A DNA stretch of 25,761 nucleotides from a virus, in the IMG/VR virus record IMGVR_UViG_3300020179_001579, positions 1 through 25,761 of that record. One strand, written 5' to 3'. Each line of letters starts with the position of its first letter. Position 1 is the stretch's first letter. The notes beneath the pieces are model-generated. The model had not been told where the DNA came from and ran no database searches. It saw only the letters and a program-made list of their open reading frames with translations. The translations under genes were made by a program, and so were the position numbers. Below are positions 4,804-14,691 of this stretch, in pieces.

Positions 4804-5752
4804 AAAGGTAGTGACTTTAGTCGAAAATTTTGTTTTTGTTAATCTTGATTGGCTCACTAATCGAGAGTATCAAAATCAAGGGGTCAACGAATTGCTTTAC
4901 GTATTAGGACAGTATAAGAACAAAATTTTTGTTTTTTTGATAAGAGATGGTGTAAATTGCAAATACACAGGACTAAACAATTTAATAAGCACAACTATTA
5001 AAAATTTCAATCTCAACCGGGACACCTGTTATATTTACAGTTACGAAAATCTTGAAATAAATGATACCACATTTATAGAATTAGATGCAATTCAGATGTG
5101 GTGTGGTAATATTGGTCAACACCTTAACCTACCACTTTCTCGTCCATTTTGTAACAAGAAGTTTGCCGGGCTTTTTGGAAGACATGATATCTATAGACTC
5201 AAGTTCTTTAAACATTTATACGATAATTACAAACAAGATAGCATACTCAGTTATAATGCTACCAAGGCTACATGGCACTATAGATTTGAACAAGATTTTG
5301 GTCATGACATACAATGGTACAATGAAAATTGTCCAGTACTATTAGATTTTGAAAAGGCCAGCGGTTGGGTACCTTTTCAAGATAGTTTAGCCAACATAGG
5401 CAAATATTACAATTCTTATTTTGTTGAAATTGTTTGCGAGACTGATATATACTCAAATAGATTTTTTACAGAAAAAAGTTTGAAAAATTTTCATTTGGGA
5501 AAGCCTTTCTTACTTTTTTCCGGTCCAGGCAGTTTAGAACATCTAAGATCTAAGGGATTTTTAACATTTGATCCATTTATCAATGAACATTATGATATTA
5601 TTGATTGTCCTCATGCTAGATACCATGCTATAATCAATGAAATAGATAGATTGGCCCAGCTGTCAAATTTTGATTTACAAACTATTTTACATCAATTGAC
5701 GCCAATTTTTGAGCATAACAGACTTAAATTTAATCAACTTAAATTAGGTTAA
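4757..5752 (+). CDS. Putative glycosyltransferase-like protein, second of the tandem pair
   Basis: The ORF is open from 4679, but that start would overlap the previous gene by 125 bases. I prefer the ATG at 4757 (MHTHQINQLIS, 331 residues), which overlaps by 47. A TTG or GTG nearer 4800 is also possible and no Shine-Dalgarno sequence decides it. The C-terminal half carries VCETDIYSNRFFTEKSLKNF and then GKPFLLFSGPGSLEHLRSKG, matching the first gene's VSETQYEYSKNVFLSEKVFK, RPFIINGSPGIYRLLKQAG. The N-terminal region (FVFVNLDWLTNREYQNQG) is more divergent. Very AT-rich. The likely function is a sugar transferase or related protein acting with its neighbour. Confidence in the gene is high, in the function modest. 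Confidence 0.72.
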   Translation: MHTHQINQLISNLNFEKVVTLVENFVFVNLDWLTNREYQNQGVNELLYVLGQYKNKIFVFLIRDGVNCKYTGLNNLISTTIKNFNLNRDTCYIYSYENLEINDTTFIELDAIQMWCGNIGQHLNLPLSRPFCNKKFAGLFGRHDIYRLKFFKHLYDNYKQDSILSYNATKATWHYRFEQDFGHDIQWYNENCPVLLDFEKASGWVPFQDSLANIGKYYNSYFVEIVCETDIYSNRFFTEKSLKNFHLGKPFLLFSGPGSLEHLRSKGFLTFDPFINEHYDIIDCPHARYHAIINEIDRLAQLSNFDLQTILHQLTPIFEHNRLKFNQLKLG

Positions 5753-5769: not shown

Positions 5770-5797
5770 TTGACTTGCTAAATATACTTGTTATACA
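5770..5797 (+). promoter_or_regulatory. Putative promoter(s) for the gp32 gene
   Basis: Two overlapping readings are visible. TTGACT (5770-5775) and TATACA (5792-5797) are 16 bases apart, a plausible sigma70-type pair. Inside the spacer lies CTAAATA (5778-5784), close to the late-promoter box of T4-like phages. An early and a late promoter may both serve gp32. The sigma70-type start would fall near 5804, in the centre of the palindrome at 5793-5817. Confidence 0.5.
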
Positions 5798-5817
5798 ATT
5801 GCACGGTGCAGTTGTAT
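5793..5817. repeat. 12-bp palindrome at the gp32 promoter (operator or leader hairpin)
   Basis: ATACAATTGCAC (5793-5804) and GTGCAGTTGTAT (5806-5817) are inverted copies around one base, with a single T:G mismatch. As DNA this is a good dimer-binding operator centred on the predicted transcription start; as RNA it would be a hairpin upstream of the gp32 ribosome site. It lacks a T run, so a terminator is unlikely. Confidence 0.7.
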
Positions 5818-5827
5818 ATCTAGGCAC

Positions 5828-5864
5828 AAACATTATGGCATTTTATAAGGAGAAACATTATGGC
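5828..5864 (+). repeat. 12-base direct repeat duplicating the gp32 start region
   Basis: AAACATTATGGC occurs at 5828-5839 and again at 5853-5864, 25 bases apart; the second copy contains the gp32 ATG. The first copy offers a decoy ATG at 5835 in another frame, opening 18 codons (MAFYKEKHYG...) that end at 5891 inside gp32. The strong ribosome site TAAGGAG (5846-5852) lies between the copies and fits only the second ATG. Confidence 0.7.
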
Positions 5865-6867
5865 CACATCACTAGCAGAAATTCGCGCTAAACTACAAGC
5901 GCAAGAAAACCGTCAATCGGGCGGTCAATCACAAGGCGACAACGCCATCTATGCACACTGGAACATTCCAGAAGGCTCAAGTGCAAAAATCCGTTTTCTA
6001 CCAGACGCTAATACACAGAACTCATTCTTCTGGGTCGAACGATTGATGATCAAACTTCCGTTCGCAGGAATCAAAGGACAAGCAGACTCAAAACCTGTTG
6101 TGGTACAAGTTCCTTGCGTAGAAATGTATGGTGACGCATGTCCTGTCTTGGCCGAAGTAAGAACATGGTTCAAAGATCCAGGCCTGGAAGAAATGGGTCG
6201 TAAGTACTGGAAAAAGAAATCATACCTGTTCCAAGGTTTTGTAAGAGAAAATCCACTAGCGGACGACAAAACACCTGAGAATCCTATTCGTAGATTCGTT
6301 ATTAGTCCCCAGATTTTTAATTTGATCAAGGCTGCACTAATGGACCCAGAACTAGAAAGCATGCCAACCGATTACACCGCCGGTTTAGATTTTACTGTTA
6401 CAAAAACTAGCAAAGGTGGCTATGCAGACTACAGCACCAGTAAGTGGAGCCGAAAAGAGACTGCACTGACAGCACAAGAACAAAGTGCGATTGATAGCTT
6501 TGGTCTTTACAATCTAAGTGACTTCCTACCCAGGCGTCCTGGTGAGGTAGAACTCAAGGTTATCAAAGAAATGTTTGAAGCGTCGGTGGATGGTCAAGCA
6601 TACGATCCTGATCGTTGGAGCCAATACTTTAAGCCTAGCGGATTCCAGGGTAAAGGCGGTAACGACGATACAGAAACAACAGCGTCTGCACCAGTAGTCA
6701 AAGCAGCACCTGCACCAGTACAATCTTCTAGTTCCTTTGTTGGCGATGATGAAGAAGATGATGCTCCTCCTGTAGCCACTGCACCTGTGCAAGCCGCTGC
6801 TACTAAACCTTCCAGTCAACGAGCCGAGGACATCTTGGCCATGATTCGTAATCGCAGCAAACAGTAA
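5860..6867 (+). CDS. gp32: Single-stranded DNA-binding protein (T4 gp32-like)
   Basis: A 335-residue homologue of T4 gp32, which coats ssDNA in replication, recombination and repair. The basic N-terminal segment (about 1-20, SLAEIRAKLQAQENRQ) fits the cooperativity domain. The OB-fold core runs to about residue 250 and includes NIPEGSSAKIRFLPD, the Cys pair C86 and C94-P95 in the zinc-site region, KDPGLEEMGRKYWKKKSYLFQGFV and FEASVDGQAYDPDRW. The C-terminal tail is Ala/Pro/Ser-rich with the acidic patch GDDEEDDAPP, as expected for the protein-recruiting tail, and ends in a short basic helix (AEDILAMIRNRSKQ). TAAGGAG seven bases before the ATG supports the start. Fewer zinc ligands are visible than in T4 gp32. 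T4 gp32 represses its own translation, and the leader here has elements that could serve the same end. A terminator follows. Confidence 0.95.
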   Translation: MATSLAEIRAKLQAQENRQSGGQSQGDNAIYAHWNIPEGSSAKIRFLPDANTQNSFFWVERLMIKLPFAGIKGQADSKPVVVQVPCVEMYGDACPVLAEVRTWFKDPGLEEMGRKYWKKKSYLFQGFVRENPLADDKTPENPIRRFVISPQIFNLIKAALMDPELESMPTDYTAGLDFTVTKTSKGGYADYSTSKWSRKETALTAQEQSAIDSFGLYNLSDFLPRRPGEVELKVIKEMFEASVDGQAYDPDRWSQYFKPSGFQGKGGNDDTETTASAPVVKAAPAPVQSSSSFVGDDEEDDAPPVATAPVQAAATKPSSQRAEDILAMIRNRSKQ

Positions 6868-6911: not shown

Positions 6912-7541
6912 ATGTTTACACCAATAGATAAATTTTTGTATTCTGATAACATTACAGTTGTCAAAATAGGGAAAGAGTATATTTTTCCTATATATAAAAA
7001 TGGATCAAGCAGTTTACTTCGTCACTGTCAAAATGTGAGTGGAATGCAACTTTATCATTCTGATTTACATAGTATTTCTGATGACATTACTGTGATTTTA
7101 AGAGATCCAATTGAAAGATTCCAGTCAGGATTGGCAACAGTAATTTTTAATCTTAAAACTCAAAATCCAGAGTTAGATTCTAACACCATTGAGTTTTTAT
7201 TGAAAAAATACTTGTACCTGGATATTCACTATATTCCGCAATTTCATTGGATACTGAATTTGTCACGCTTCATAAAACCTGAAGTTAAATTTCATTTCCG
7301 ATCAATGCAGTATTTGAAAAAAATAACTTCATTAAATGAAACTCCACGGAAAGCTAACGGAATAAATGTAGATTATCAAATCGCACAAGATCTTTATTTG
7401 CAATTAGATACTATACTTTATAATCAGATAGGAAATAAATTAACTTTTCAAGAAATAATGACTATCATAAAAAATGATAAAGATAGTGGCTATTATGATA
7501 TTATCAATATACCTTTATCGCTAATTGATTTAATACAATAA
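6912..7541 (+). CDS. Putative sulfotransferase (PAPS-dependent)
   Basis: A 209-residue protein resembling the carbohydrate sulfotransferase families. YKNGSSSLL (28-36) is a good match to the 5'-phosphosulfate loop that binds PAPS (typically K-x-G-[ST]-T/S), and VILRDPIERFQSGL (61-74) matches the 3'-phosphate motif, with R64 and S72 in the expected places. Length is somewhat short for the family. It would move a sulfate from PAPS to a hydroxyl or amino group of a glycan. The gene begins right after the gp32 terminator and its stop shares one base with the next start (TAATG at 7538-7542). It is clearly more AT-rich than gp32 and uvsX, suggesting separate acquisition. Acceptor unknown; it may act with the glycosyltransferases elsewhere in the window. 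Confidence 0.75.
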   Translation: MFTPIDKFLYSDNITVVKIGKEYIFPIYKNGSSSLLRHCQNVSGMQLYHSDLHSISDDITVILRDPIERFQSGLATVIFNLKTQNPELDSNTIEFLLKKYLYLDIHYIPQFHWILNLSRFIKPEVKFHFRSMQYLKKITSLNETPRKANGINVDYQIAQDLYLQLDTILYNQIGNKLTFQEIMTIIKNDKDSGYYDIINIPLSLIDLIQ

Positions 7542-8563
7542 TGTTTTGTCCTAGATTAACGCATAATATAAGACTAGCTGAAAATTCAATGTTTCAGGTA
7601 TGTGGTCATATGATAAATGCGCCATCATTTAATAGTATTGAAAATTTACGAAATAGTTCTTGGTTAAAAAACACCCTTAATAAGTTTACTAACAATGAGT
7701 GGCCAGACGAATGTAAGCGTTGTAAAGAAGTAGAAAATACTAATCATCAAAAGAGTGTGAGAGAACATTCGGTTGAAGCGCATACAAAATATATACAATT
7801 AAATCCAGATTATTTGTTTGTTTCGGGAATACTCGATAATGTTTGTAATTCAGCATGCATAAGTTGTTCAAATAAAAATAGCACTTACATTGGAAAGTTA
7901 TCCAAGACTGTAATAAAAATAGATAATTCAAACATTTTCAATCAAATATCAGCAGACAAGATTTTAGTTTTTGAAATAACCGGTGGAGAACCAACATTTA
8001 GTAAGTTGTATAAAGAAAAATTGATGTCATTAAAGCATGCCAAGTTTATACGAATAAACACAAACGCAAGCAAATTTATGCCAGAAATAGAGAATCTATT
8101 AGAAAAAAACATTGAAATAACTATAACGTTTAGTATTGACGGTGTAGAAAAGGTATTTGAATATACTAGATGGCCTTTAAAATGGGCAACAACACTTGAA
8201 GTTATACAAAAGTATAAAAATTTACAAACAAAATTTGAAAATTTAAAATTGAACATTTGGACTACTTTGAGTGTGTTAAATGTAAATGATTTTTCAAGGA
8301 TTAAAGAATTCTCACGCGAGGTTAATATTCCAATGTCATATGGATTACTTCATTATCCAGCGGAGCTAAGTGTTCAACATAGAAATCAATTTACAATTGC
8401 TGCCAAAAATTCTTTACCAGAATTTGATAATTTGGTTGCAACAGGCGACGATAATAGTTTATTTTTAAACACATTTATTGAAGAGCAGGACAAGATCAGA
8501 AACATAAGCATAGATAATTTTATTAAAATAAAGGAAAATAATCATGGCAACCAAACCCTTTGA
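7541..8563 (+). CDS. Radical SAM protein, twitch type (first)
   Basis: A 340-residue radical SAM enzyme. The 4Fe-4S site is C102-x3-C106-x2-C109 (VCNSACISC), followed by ITGGEP (147-152), the SAM-binding GGE motif, and a beta/alpha barrel. The N-terminal 80 residues hold a second cysteine region (VCGH near 20; ECKRC at 57-61; SVRE at 72-75) like that of twitch/SPASM proteins, which bind an auxiliary cluster. Such enzymes often modify peptides or sugars by radical chemistry. It overlaps the sulfotransferase stop by one base and runs 20 bases into uvsX, so it sits inside the recombination operon. It is very AT-rich. Substrate unknown; the C-terminus is less typical. Confidence 0.82.
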   Translation: MFCPRLTHNIRLAENSMFQVCGHMINAPSFNSIENLRNSSWLKNTLNKFTNNEWPDECKRCKEVENTNHQKSVREHSVEAHTKYIQLNPDYLFVSGILDNVCNSACISCSNKNSTYIGKLSKTVIKIDNSNIFNQISADKILVFEITGGEPTFSKLYKEKLMSLKHAKFIRINTNASKFMPEIENLLEKNIEITITFSIDGVEKVFEYTRWPLKWATTLEVIQKYKNLQTKFENLKLNIWTTLSVLNVNDFSRIKEFSREVNIPMSYGLLHYPAELSVQHRNQFTIAAKNSLPEFDNLVATGDDNSLFLNTFIEEQDKIRNISIDNFIKIKENNHGNQTL

Positions 8564-13497: not shown

Positions 13498-13505
13498 GGT
13501 AAATA
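13498..13505 (+). promoter_or_regulatory. Putative late promoter box (GGTAAATA)
   Basis: GGTAAATA ends 8 bases before the ATG at 13513, the same spacing as GATAAATA before the gene at 2379. It matches the TAAATA core of the T4 late consensus. Confidence 0.45.
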
Positions 13506-13512
13506 TGTTATT

Positions 13513-14691
13513 ATGCGCGAACTAATCAACATTCTCACAGAAGCAGCTACCAAGCAAGAAATTCAGGATATACTTGCTCAAAACGGCTATACAGACTTAA
13601 AAATTGATGGAAATAAGATAGCTGTGCTTGTACAAATTCCTGACGGACAAATTAAAGACGATTTTAGAATGAAAGTTTTGCAAGACCTGCCACAAACTAT
13701 TAATGCAGCAAATCCTGATTTGGACGCCAGATACAGTCCTTATGGGGGAAGCAGCCTTGGTCATGTAGAATTTTGGCAGAGTAAGGTAAAATTATTTGTA
13801 AAAGATATTGGTAAGCAAGGGGACAAAAGTGCAGGTGTTGCCAATGAAATTGAACTTGCTGGTATATTACAAAGCGTAATTGAAAAATACGGATCCGTAC
13901 ACACTACTTTTGTTGATCCGCGGGGAAAAACCCTGACATTAAACAACTGTAACAAAGTTAATATATCTGGCAGAGATACAAAAGCAAGGAAAAAGGCTGA
14001 TGTAGTTCTGGTAAGTCCTGACAGTAATCTTCCTATTAGTATTAAAAAGTTGAATGCTGAAGCATGGGAAAGTGCAGATACTGCCTTTGGTCAAAAGGCT
14101 CGAGACATTATAGATCGACTAAGAGATAAAGGTGTAGTCGAATTAATTCAACTAGAAAATAGCCCATCCTATAACCCGGTGTTTAGACTAAGCAGAGAGA
14201 TTGTTGTAGAGCCTACTGAACAAGAAGCCTTGGAGGCAATTTTTGGTAGCGATTTGAATCCTCGGGGTGGTATAGTTATTCAGACATTCAAACCAGAACA
14301 TTTTGTGCAAAACGGCAATCAAGTTCGGGTTGAATGTCATGCTGTTATAGCTACAAGACAAGATATTCCTGAAAGCCATGCCATGGTTTGGTTGATACGC
14401 AACGATCCAGGCAGGAATAATAAATCTCTCGGAATCCGTGGCATTAGAACTATGGCAGTAACATTGTCCAGAGGTATTGGTAAAACAGGTAAAAAAAATC
14501 CTATATTAGTTGATAAAGATGGTAATCTTGTAGATAAAAATTACGATCCAAATGGTGAACAAGATCAAGAAGTAAGTAGTAAAGAATTAAAACAGTTTGA
14601 CCCAGAAAAAACTAGAGTTAAAATAACACATCCTGGACGACTGGCTGAACCTCGAGACAAAGATACTACTCCTAGACAAAAAAGAGATTGA
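13513..14691 (+). CDS. Putative PD-(D/E)xK nuclease-like protein with a capsid-targeting-like N-terminus
   Basis: A 392-residue protein. The centre holds a possible restriction-endonuclease fold: NEIELAGILQ (111-120, E112 or E114), then KADVVLVSPD (161-170, D163) and PISIKK (174-179, S176-x-K178), in the order E...D...xK expected of PD-(D/E)xK enzymes. The first residues MRELINILTEA resemble T4 capsid-targeting sequences (MKTYQEFIAEA), and LTE fits the L/I-x-E site cut by the T4 prohead protease. The C-terminal 70 residues are polar and charged (NKNYDPNGEQDQEVSSKELK-like composition, ending TPRQKRD), consistent with DNA contact. It could be an internal head protein delivered with DNA. The gene is certain; both functional readings are inference. 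Confidence 0.72.
   Translation: MRELINILTEAATKQEIQDILAQNGYTDLKIDGNKIAVLVQIPDGQIKDDFRMKVLQDLPQTINAANPDLDARYSPYGGSSLGHVEFWQSKVKLFVKDIGKQGDKSAGVANEIELAGILQSVIEKYGSVHTTFVDPRGKTLTLNNCNKVNISGRDTKARKKADVVLVSPDSNLPISIKKLNAEAWESADTAFGQKARDIIDRLRDKGVVELIQLENSPSYNPVFRLSREIVVEPTEQEALEAIFGSDLNPRGGIVIQTFKPEHFVQNGNQVRVECHAVIATRQDIPESHAMVWLIRNDPGRNNKSLGIRGIRTMAVTLSRGIGKTGKKNPILVDKDGNLVDKNYDPNGEQDQEVSSKELKQFDPEKTRVKITHPGRLAEPRDKDTTPRQKRD

Follow-up and report, generated by a model that had tools for sequence, protein, structure and literature searches.

A conserved hairpin at a predicted late transcription start and GGCA repeats form a candidate control region in the gp32 leader of a T4-like phage

We analysed the region upstream of a gp32-like gene in a 25,761-nt viral fragment, IMGVR_UViG_3300020179_001579 (positions 1 to 25,761) of IMG/VR, the whole of which we call the window. 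With genes for terminase, a virion protein, gp32 and a UvsX-like protein, the window represents part of the genome of a T4-like phage. Genes for radical SAM proteins, a methyltransferase, a TPP enzyme, a DegT/DnrJ aminotransferase and a family 17 glycosyltransferase are found between 7541 and 25348. The gene upstream of gp32 ends at 5752 and gp32 starts at 5860, leaving a leader of 107 nt. The features of the locus are:

5770 to 5799, plus strand: sigma70-like promoter TTGACT-N18-TACAAT (10 of 12 matches), with a predicted start at about 5805-5806, in the hairpin loop
5779 to 5784, plus strand: TAAATA, a T4-type late promoter core recognized by conservation, with a predicted late start at 5790 (sixth base after)
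5792 to 5818, plus strand: predicted 5'-terminal RNA hairpin of 12 pairs (5792-5803/5807-5818) with loop 5804-5806, supported by folding, covariation and position
5822 to 5827, plus strand: first GGCA motif, AGGCAC, supported by GGCA enrichment
5833 to 5840, plus strand: second GGCA motif, TTATGGCA, in the repeat copy at 5828-5839 and originally read as a decoy initiation site
5847 to 5852, plus strand: Shine-Dalgarno site AAGGAG, assigned by sequence and common among relatives
5860 to 6867, plus strand: gp32-like single-strand DNA binding protein of 335 amino acids (phrog_1192, E 4.9e-69)

The gene that follows the leader is also matched by phrog_224 (3.2e-8), in keeping with its assignment as gp32. 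We compared the leader with those of relatives retrieved from IMG/VR with five gp32 queries, taking the best 80 of about 600 matches per query; the sample thus consists of near relatives of the queries used. A first set comprised the window and 80 loci (81 leaders), of which 75 were retained after removal of 6 with <100 nt of upstream sequence. In total, 359 loci had a start, and removal of 16 with too little upstream sequence left 343 usable leaders from IMG/VR and named phages, 197 of which are distinct (185 environmental, 12 from named phages). The 185 leaders are mutually related, and the counts given below are thus not independent.

The 12-bp inverted repeat noted in the original prediction is present, with arms at 5793-5804 and 5806-5817 around a centre at 5805. 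Its arms are complementary at 11 of 12 positions, and the twelfth (T5799/G5811) would be a G-U pair in RNA. The innermost C-G pair (5804/5806) cannot form in RNA and is kept in 11 of 24 relatives. Folding of 5786-5827 yields -14.4 kcal/mol (z -3.46), with 1 of 200 shuffles equally good. Covariation in the stem, which had been suggested as a check, was borne out by an alignment of 24 distinct leaders of equal length: 95.8% of the 288 cells pair and 32 carry two-sided changes, a number matched by 0 of 500 shuffles, and slid controls pair at 14-56%. The non-Watson-Crick cells comprise 26 G-U but only 1 A-C combination, pointing to an RNA read from the plus strand, unlike a DNA palindrome. Stem pairs 8-22 and 10-20 underwent 7 and 5 state changes, respectively, on the gp32 DNA tree, and both are paired in 24 of 24 rows. 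Sign tests for independent compensation found 3 or 4 pairs, none in the wrong direction and too few for significance. The sequence of the arms is barely conserved across clades, and the size of the hairpin varies (13 pairs in G017, 23 in G016) while its foot stays at the predicted late start; in another clade TAAATA sits further upstream and the hairpin is longer. By these comparisons, the palindrome is best read as a conserved hairpin of the sense-strand RNA rather than as a DNA operator.

The palindrome had been described as centred on the predicted transcription start, which holds for the sigma70-like promoter (about 5805-5806) but not for the predicted late start at 5790, which lies at its foot. 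If the hairpin were centred on the sole start it would never be transcribed as a whole, a problem that the late promoter resolves. The core of this promoter, TAAATA, was missed in the original prediction. It is found in 75 of 75 leaders of the first set, within the last 110 nt of 147 of the 185 distinct leaders (compared with 39 by shuffling) and at -115 to -50 in 149 of the 197. In the 176 of 185 leaders with a usable sigma70/TAAATA pair (9 were without one), TAAATA is preceded by A or C in 175, and the predicted +1, six bases downstream of the motif, is a purine in 167 of 176 (125 G, 42 A). The locus and its relatives agree with the hallmarks of T4-type late promoters, namely a TATAAATA-like core, a start (here predicted) about 6 nt downstream and, in related records, a gp55-like sigma. 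The gp55-like sigma family phrog_12791 was detected in 5 of 10 related records versus 0 of 14 controls; none was found in the 25.8 kb of the window. Hairpin and promoter keep a fixed register: among 178 leaders (7 of the 185 had no usable TAAATA), the foot falls exactly on the predicted +1 in 127 (shuffles 24%) and the hairpin starts within 4 nt of it in 168 (shuffles 39%, a high null). Class A leaders begin their hairpin with a TTA that lies 6 nt after TAAATA in 38 of 38. A stem that begins near the RNA 5' end is obtained for the predicted late start only, which at 5790 coincides with the hairpin foot. For CBB, a distant relative, PMC5259590 predicts an ATAAATA late promoter before structural genes, a gp55-like sigma and a different type of promoter close to genes of DNA synthesis, gp32 among them.

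The linker that follows the hairpin is mostly unpaired in predicted folds and contains GGCA at 5823-5826 and 5837-5840. Across positions -65 to -6 of the 185 leaders we counted 311 GGCA, compared with 115 by shuffling; at least one is present in 174 of 185 leaders (shuffle mean 91) and at least two in 97 (shuffle mean 21). GGCA is preceded by A in 77% and followed by A, C or T in 97%. AAGGAG occurs in 77 of the 185 distinct leaders versus 4 by shuffling. The predicted 12-nt repeat, AAACATTATGGC, does exist at 5828-5839 and, over the gp32 ATG, at 5853-5864, with a spacing of 25, and the decoy ATG at 5835 is out of frame, its frame ending at the stop 5889-5891 (by eye). Repeats of at least 8 nt of the ATG-spanning word are found in 27 of 185 leaders, mostly close kin, versus 0.5% of shuffles, and exact repeats of at least 12 nt over the ATG in 6 of 185. 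As a conserved design, the duplicated initiation site did not hold up: only 40 of the 185 distinct leaders have an upstream ATGGC, and it is missing from L005, which keeps the hairpin and is, by path on the gp32 tree, among the two rows of the 24 closest to the window. The three bases before the upstream ATGGC agree with those before the true start in 25 of 40 leaders (permutation 19, maximum 28). Judged by its distribution, the apparent duplication of the initiation site is a variant of the GGCA repeat confined to one clade. An optional AAGACCATCTT element, with its core in 75 of 185 leaders, was considered for covariation; it is mostly fixed sequence, and we make no claim for it.

We assessed the specificity of the leader with a covariance model, R1. 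At E<=0.01, all R1 matches in 41 sources (409 kb) were gp32 leaders, two of the matches being the reverse strand of the same gp32 leaders. In 11 larger records, the 4 matches below 1e-6 are the window leader and the gp32 loci of G017, G007 and G018; weak matches elsewhere lie in G016 (E 0.002) and G010 (E 0.009). Genome-wide AGGCA pairs were uninformative because the word is common in coding strands, and we instead scanned 202 predicted leaders from 20 segments of four contigs. There, gp32 has at least two [AT]GGCA in 3 of the 4 contigs; 6 non-gp32 leaders also have at least two, 4 of them judged by eye to be coding sequence with a wrongly predicted start. Among these leaders GGCA repeats are rare outside gp32, but they are not strictly gp32-specific. 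A GGCA-repeat leader precedes a 111-amino-acid gene in one related contig (L400:931-1266, minus strand), and a similar leader is found in a second (L408:8582-8914, plus strand, about 110 amino acids). The N-termini of the two proteins are alike (MATEKLFTVAG and MATDKLFTVA), both leaders have a sigma70-like promoter, a short hairpin and AGGCA motifs, and a PHROGs search with the L400 protein gave no match.

TAAATA is found within 150 nt upstream in 56 of the 202 predicted leaders from the four related contigs, about half of which would have a length of 10-29 nt. Some other late genes of related contigs likewise carry a hairpin at or adjoining the predicted +1. A common late leader with a 5' hairpin at +1 lies upstream of 19416 in L405 and of 6301 (minus strand) in L416; these leaders and that upstream of 4344 in L407 have ACTTGCTTA or ACTCGCTTA ahead of their Shine-Dalgarno sites. 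In the window itself, the genes at 2379 and 13513 share the start TTATGCGCGAACTAA (2366-2382 and 13500-13516), with TAAATA ending 8 nt before the ATG; their predicted late leader of about 2 nt would make a near-leaderless mRNA. The Rfam family freshwater-2 (RF02980) comes from the same phage group and is also a cis-regulatory leader ending at the start codon. The window scores 20.1 bits against a gathering cut-off of 49.9 and is not a member, and members above the cut-off precede other, virion-like genes and not gp32. Such RNAs lie at L402:1317-1390 and L403:2256-2329 (both minus strand), and a look-alike lies in L415 upstream of 7498-8244 (minus strand); the next genes in all three are virion-like and start MGRP[ILV]K. 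In L415, the 5' end of the leader coincides with the predicted late +1. This suggests that freshwater-2 is a phage late-gene leader.

Among the named phages, Sinorhizobium phage Phosso (50% identity) has a leader in which TAAATA, hairpins and two GGCTC motifs can be read by eye, and those of the RaK2, CBB, GAP32 and PBECO4 types, distant named phages with TATAAT promoters, are unlike that of the window. PA5oct (L095) has an apparent H-type pseudoknot about 80 nt before gp32, directly after a TTGACA/TATAAT promoter (by eye), and its leader resembles that of T4 more than the window's does. Of the contigs placed in bacterial or archaeal genome bins, seven encode gp32 at 51-61% identity, and 7 of 7 leaders have a hairpin and at least one AGGCA (by eye; L385 and L392 are identical and L387 comprises only 55 nt). 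TAAATA is present in L385/L392, L386 and L388 and absent from L389 and L391 (by eye).

We tentatively favour, at somewhat less than an even chance, a bipartite gp32 leader in which a hairpin protects the 5' end and the GGCA tract serves translational control with gp32 as candidate repressor, a reading that draws on the hairpin, its covariation, its fixed register with TAAATA and the repeats. Late transcription from TAAATA would start at 5790, and the late gp32 mRNA would open with the 12-bp hairpin and almost no unpaired 5' base. The hairpin would most likely block pyrophosphohydrolase and 5'-end-dependent ribonuclease, and this shielding would prolong the late gp32 message. The A/U-rich GGCA linker up to the Shine-Dalgarno site would most likely be the site of translational control, and gp32 is the first candidate repressor by analogy with T4; transcription starts, 5'-end protection and gp32 binding are what we infer from the comparisons. 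Protection of the 5' end is the most likely role of the hairpin because its position is kept rather than its sequence and because it recurs in some other late genes, as expected of a general function at the 5' end. An early RNA from the sigma70-like start would be without the hairpin, so that a pure stability role would be late-only. A 5' stem-loop protects ompA mRNA from 5'-end-dependent attack. As in ompA-type stem-loops, the stem in our leader has at most a few bases between it and the predicted 5' end; unlike them, the leader is viral, has a T4-type late promoter and carries a gene-specific repeat tract after the hairpin. That RNA structure can protect 5' ends is also described in PMC3997798.

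It is less likely, and on balance we think unlikely, that the leader is a T4-like autogenous operator, with gp32 nucleating on the hairpin and spreading over the repeats and the Shine-Dalgarno site, without 5'-end protection. The gene is the same, and the order of parts is that of T4 and RB69, whose operators comprise a structured element, a repeated short motif and a Shine-Dalgarno site according to PMC535899, PMC3014915 and the T4 leader sequence. As in the T4/T2/RB69 operator described there, a structured element lies tens of bases upstream of gp32, and a short motif is repeated in an A/U-rich linker that reaches the Shine-Dalgarno site; the repeats in our linker are mostly unpaired in predicted folds. 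The T4/T2/RB69 operator has a pseudoknot and a UUAA(A) linker, whereas the window has a simple hairpin at the predicted 5' terminus of the RNA, placed there by a late promoter directly upstream, and a linker with GGCA repeats and no UUAA(A) repeats (5819-5846). The only candidate that we noticed for the second helix of an H-type pseudoknot, RTGY/GGCAY, has 4 bp and 0 two-sided changes in the 24 aligned leaders. Pairing of RTGY in the 3' arm with GGCAY in 168 of the 185 leaders (17 left out) gave 70 G-C, 32 A-T, 18 G-T, 9 A-C and 39 others; these counts do not go beyond shared ancestry, the association of R and Y being non-significant on the tree (129 rows, 7 independent pairs, median p 1; 168 rows, 11 independent pairs, median p 0.375). 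The scarcely conserved hairpin sequence, the 5' hairpins of other late genes, the unsupported pseudoknot and the GGCA repeats of a second gene all argue against this operator. Of the T4-like control proposed originally, the conserved RNA hairpin and the order of structure, repeats, Shine-Dalgarno site and start stand; the duplicated initiation site does not.

A choice between promoters appears distinctly unlikely. An early sigma70 RNA would start in the loop and lack the hairpin, a late RNA would start at the foot and contain it, and leader structure, and with it expression or repressibility, would shift with the stage of infection. The positions of both promoter elements are conserved: in 109 of 176 leaders the distance from TAAATA to the first base of the -10 is 6-9 nt, and 114 of 178 have the predicted sigma70-like start in the loop or close to it. 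In 38 class A leaders, the mean fold energy is -10.5 for the late start and -5.7 for the early one. T4 gene e and I-TevI also let promoter choice determine whether a leader hairpin forms, in the mirror image, with the hairpin in early RNA and none in late RNA (PMC3014915). The window's sigma70-like match by itself is, however, at chance level (1 found, shuffle mean 1.4), and five L072-type leaders have the sigma70-like promoter upstream, so both RNAs would contain the hairpin. A second 5' arm for the early RNA of this type was rejected, as 4 of the 5 leaders preferentially fold into the ordinary hairpin. Still less probable is a stage-dependent RNA operator in which nested promoters share the hairpin and only the late gp32 mRNA is hairpin-bearing, stable and repressible by gp32 through GGCA; the early RNA would lack the hairpin only if the sigma70-like promoter is used.

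We consider it very improbable that the upstream ATGGC competes with the true start as a decoy or standby site of initiation. The 12-nt repeat of the window and its close kin speaks for this, but ATGGC occurs in only 40 of 185 leaders, others carry AAGGCA, TAGGCA or AAGACCATCTT in the linker instead, and the window has no Shine-Dalgarno match directly upstream of it. Least probable of all is a DNA operator bound by a dimeric repressor at the sigma70 promoter start: the near-perfect inverted repeat does cover the -10 region and the predicted start, but a DNA palindrome should show G-U and A-C cells equally, its central pair is kept in fewer than half of the relatives, its arms vary freely among clades, and it is single-copy in the window.

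Our survey of literature on the motif family, gp32 operators and jumbo-phage late promoters, which covered few subscription journals and is thus weak evidence of novelty, yielded no description of this leader. The review PMC3014915 notes that RB49 has neither the pseudoknot nor the A/U-rich sequence of T4 and calls for work on a wider range of relatives. Our comparisons suggest that the leader is a new-looking counterpart of the T4 gp32 control region, and possibly an autogenous operator of non-T4 design. For gp32 control outside the T4 coliphages, a covarying leader tied to a late promoter in well over 100 environmental relatives would represent a second design. More broadly, it hints that these phages may cap some of their late messages with 5' hairpins.
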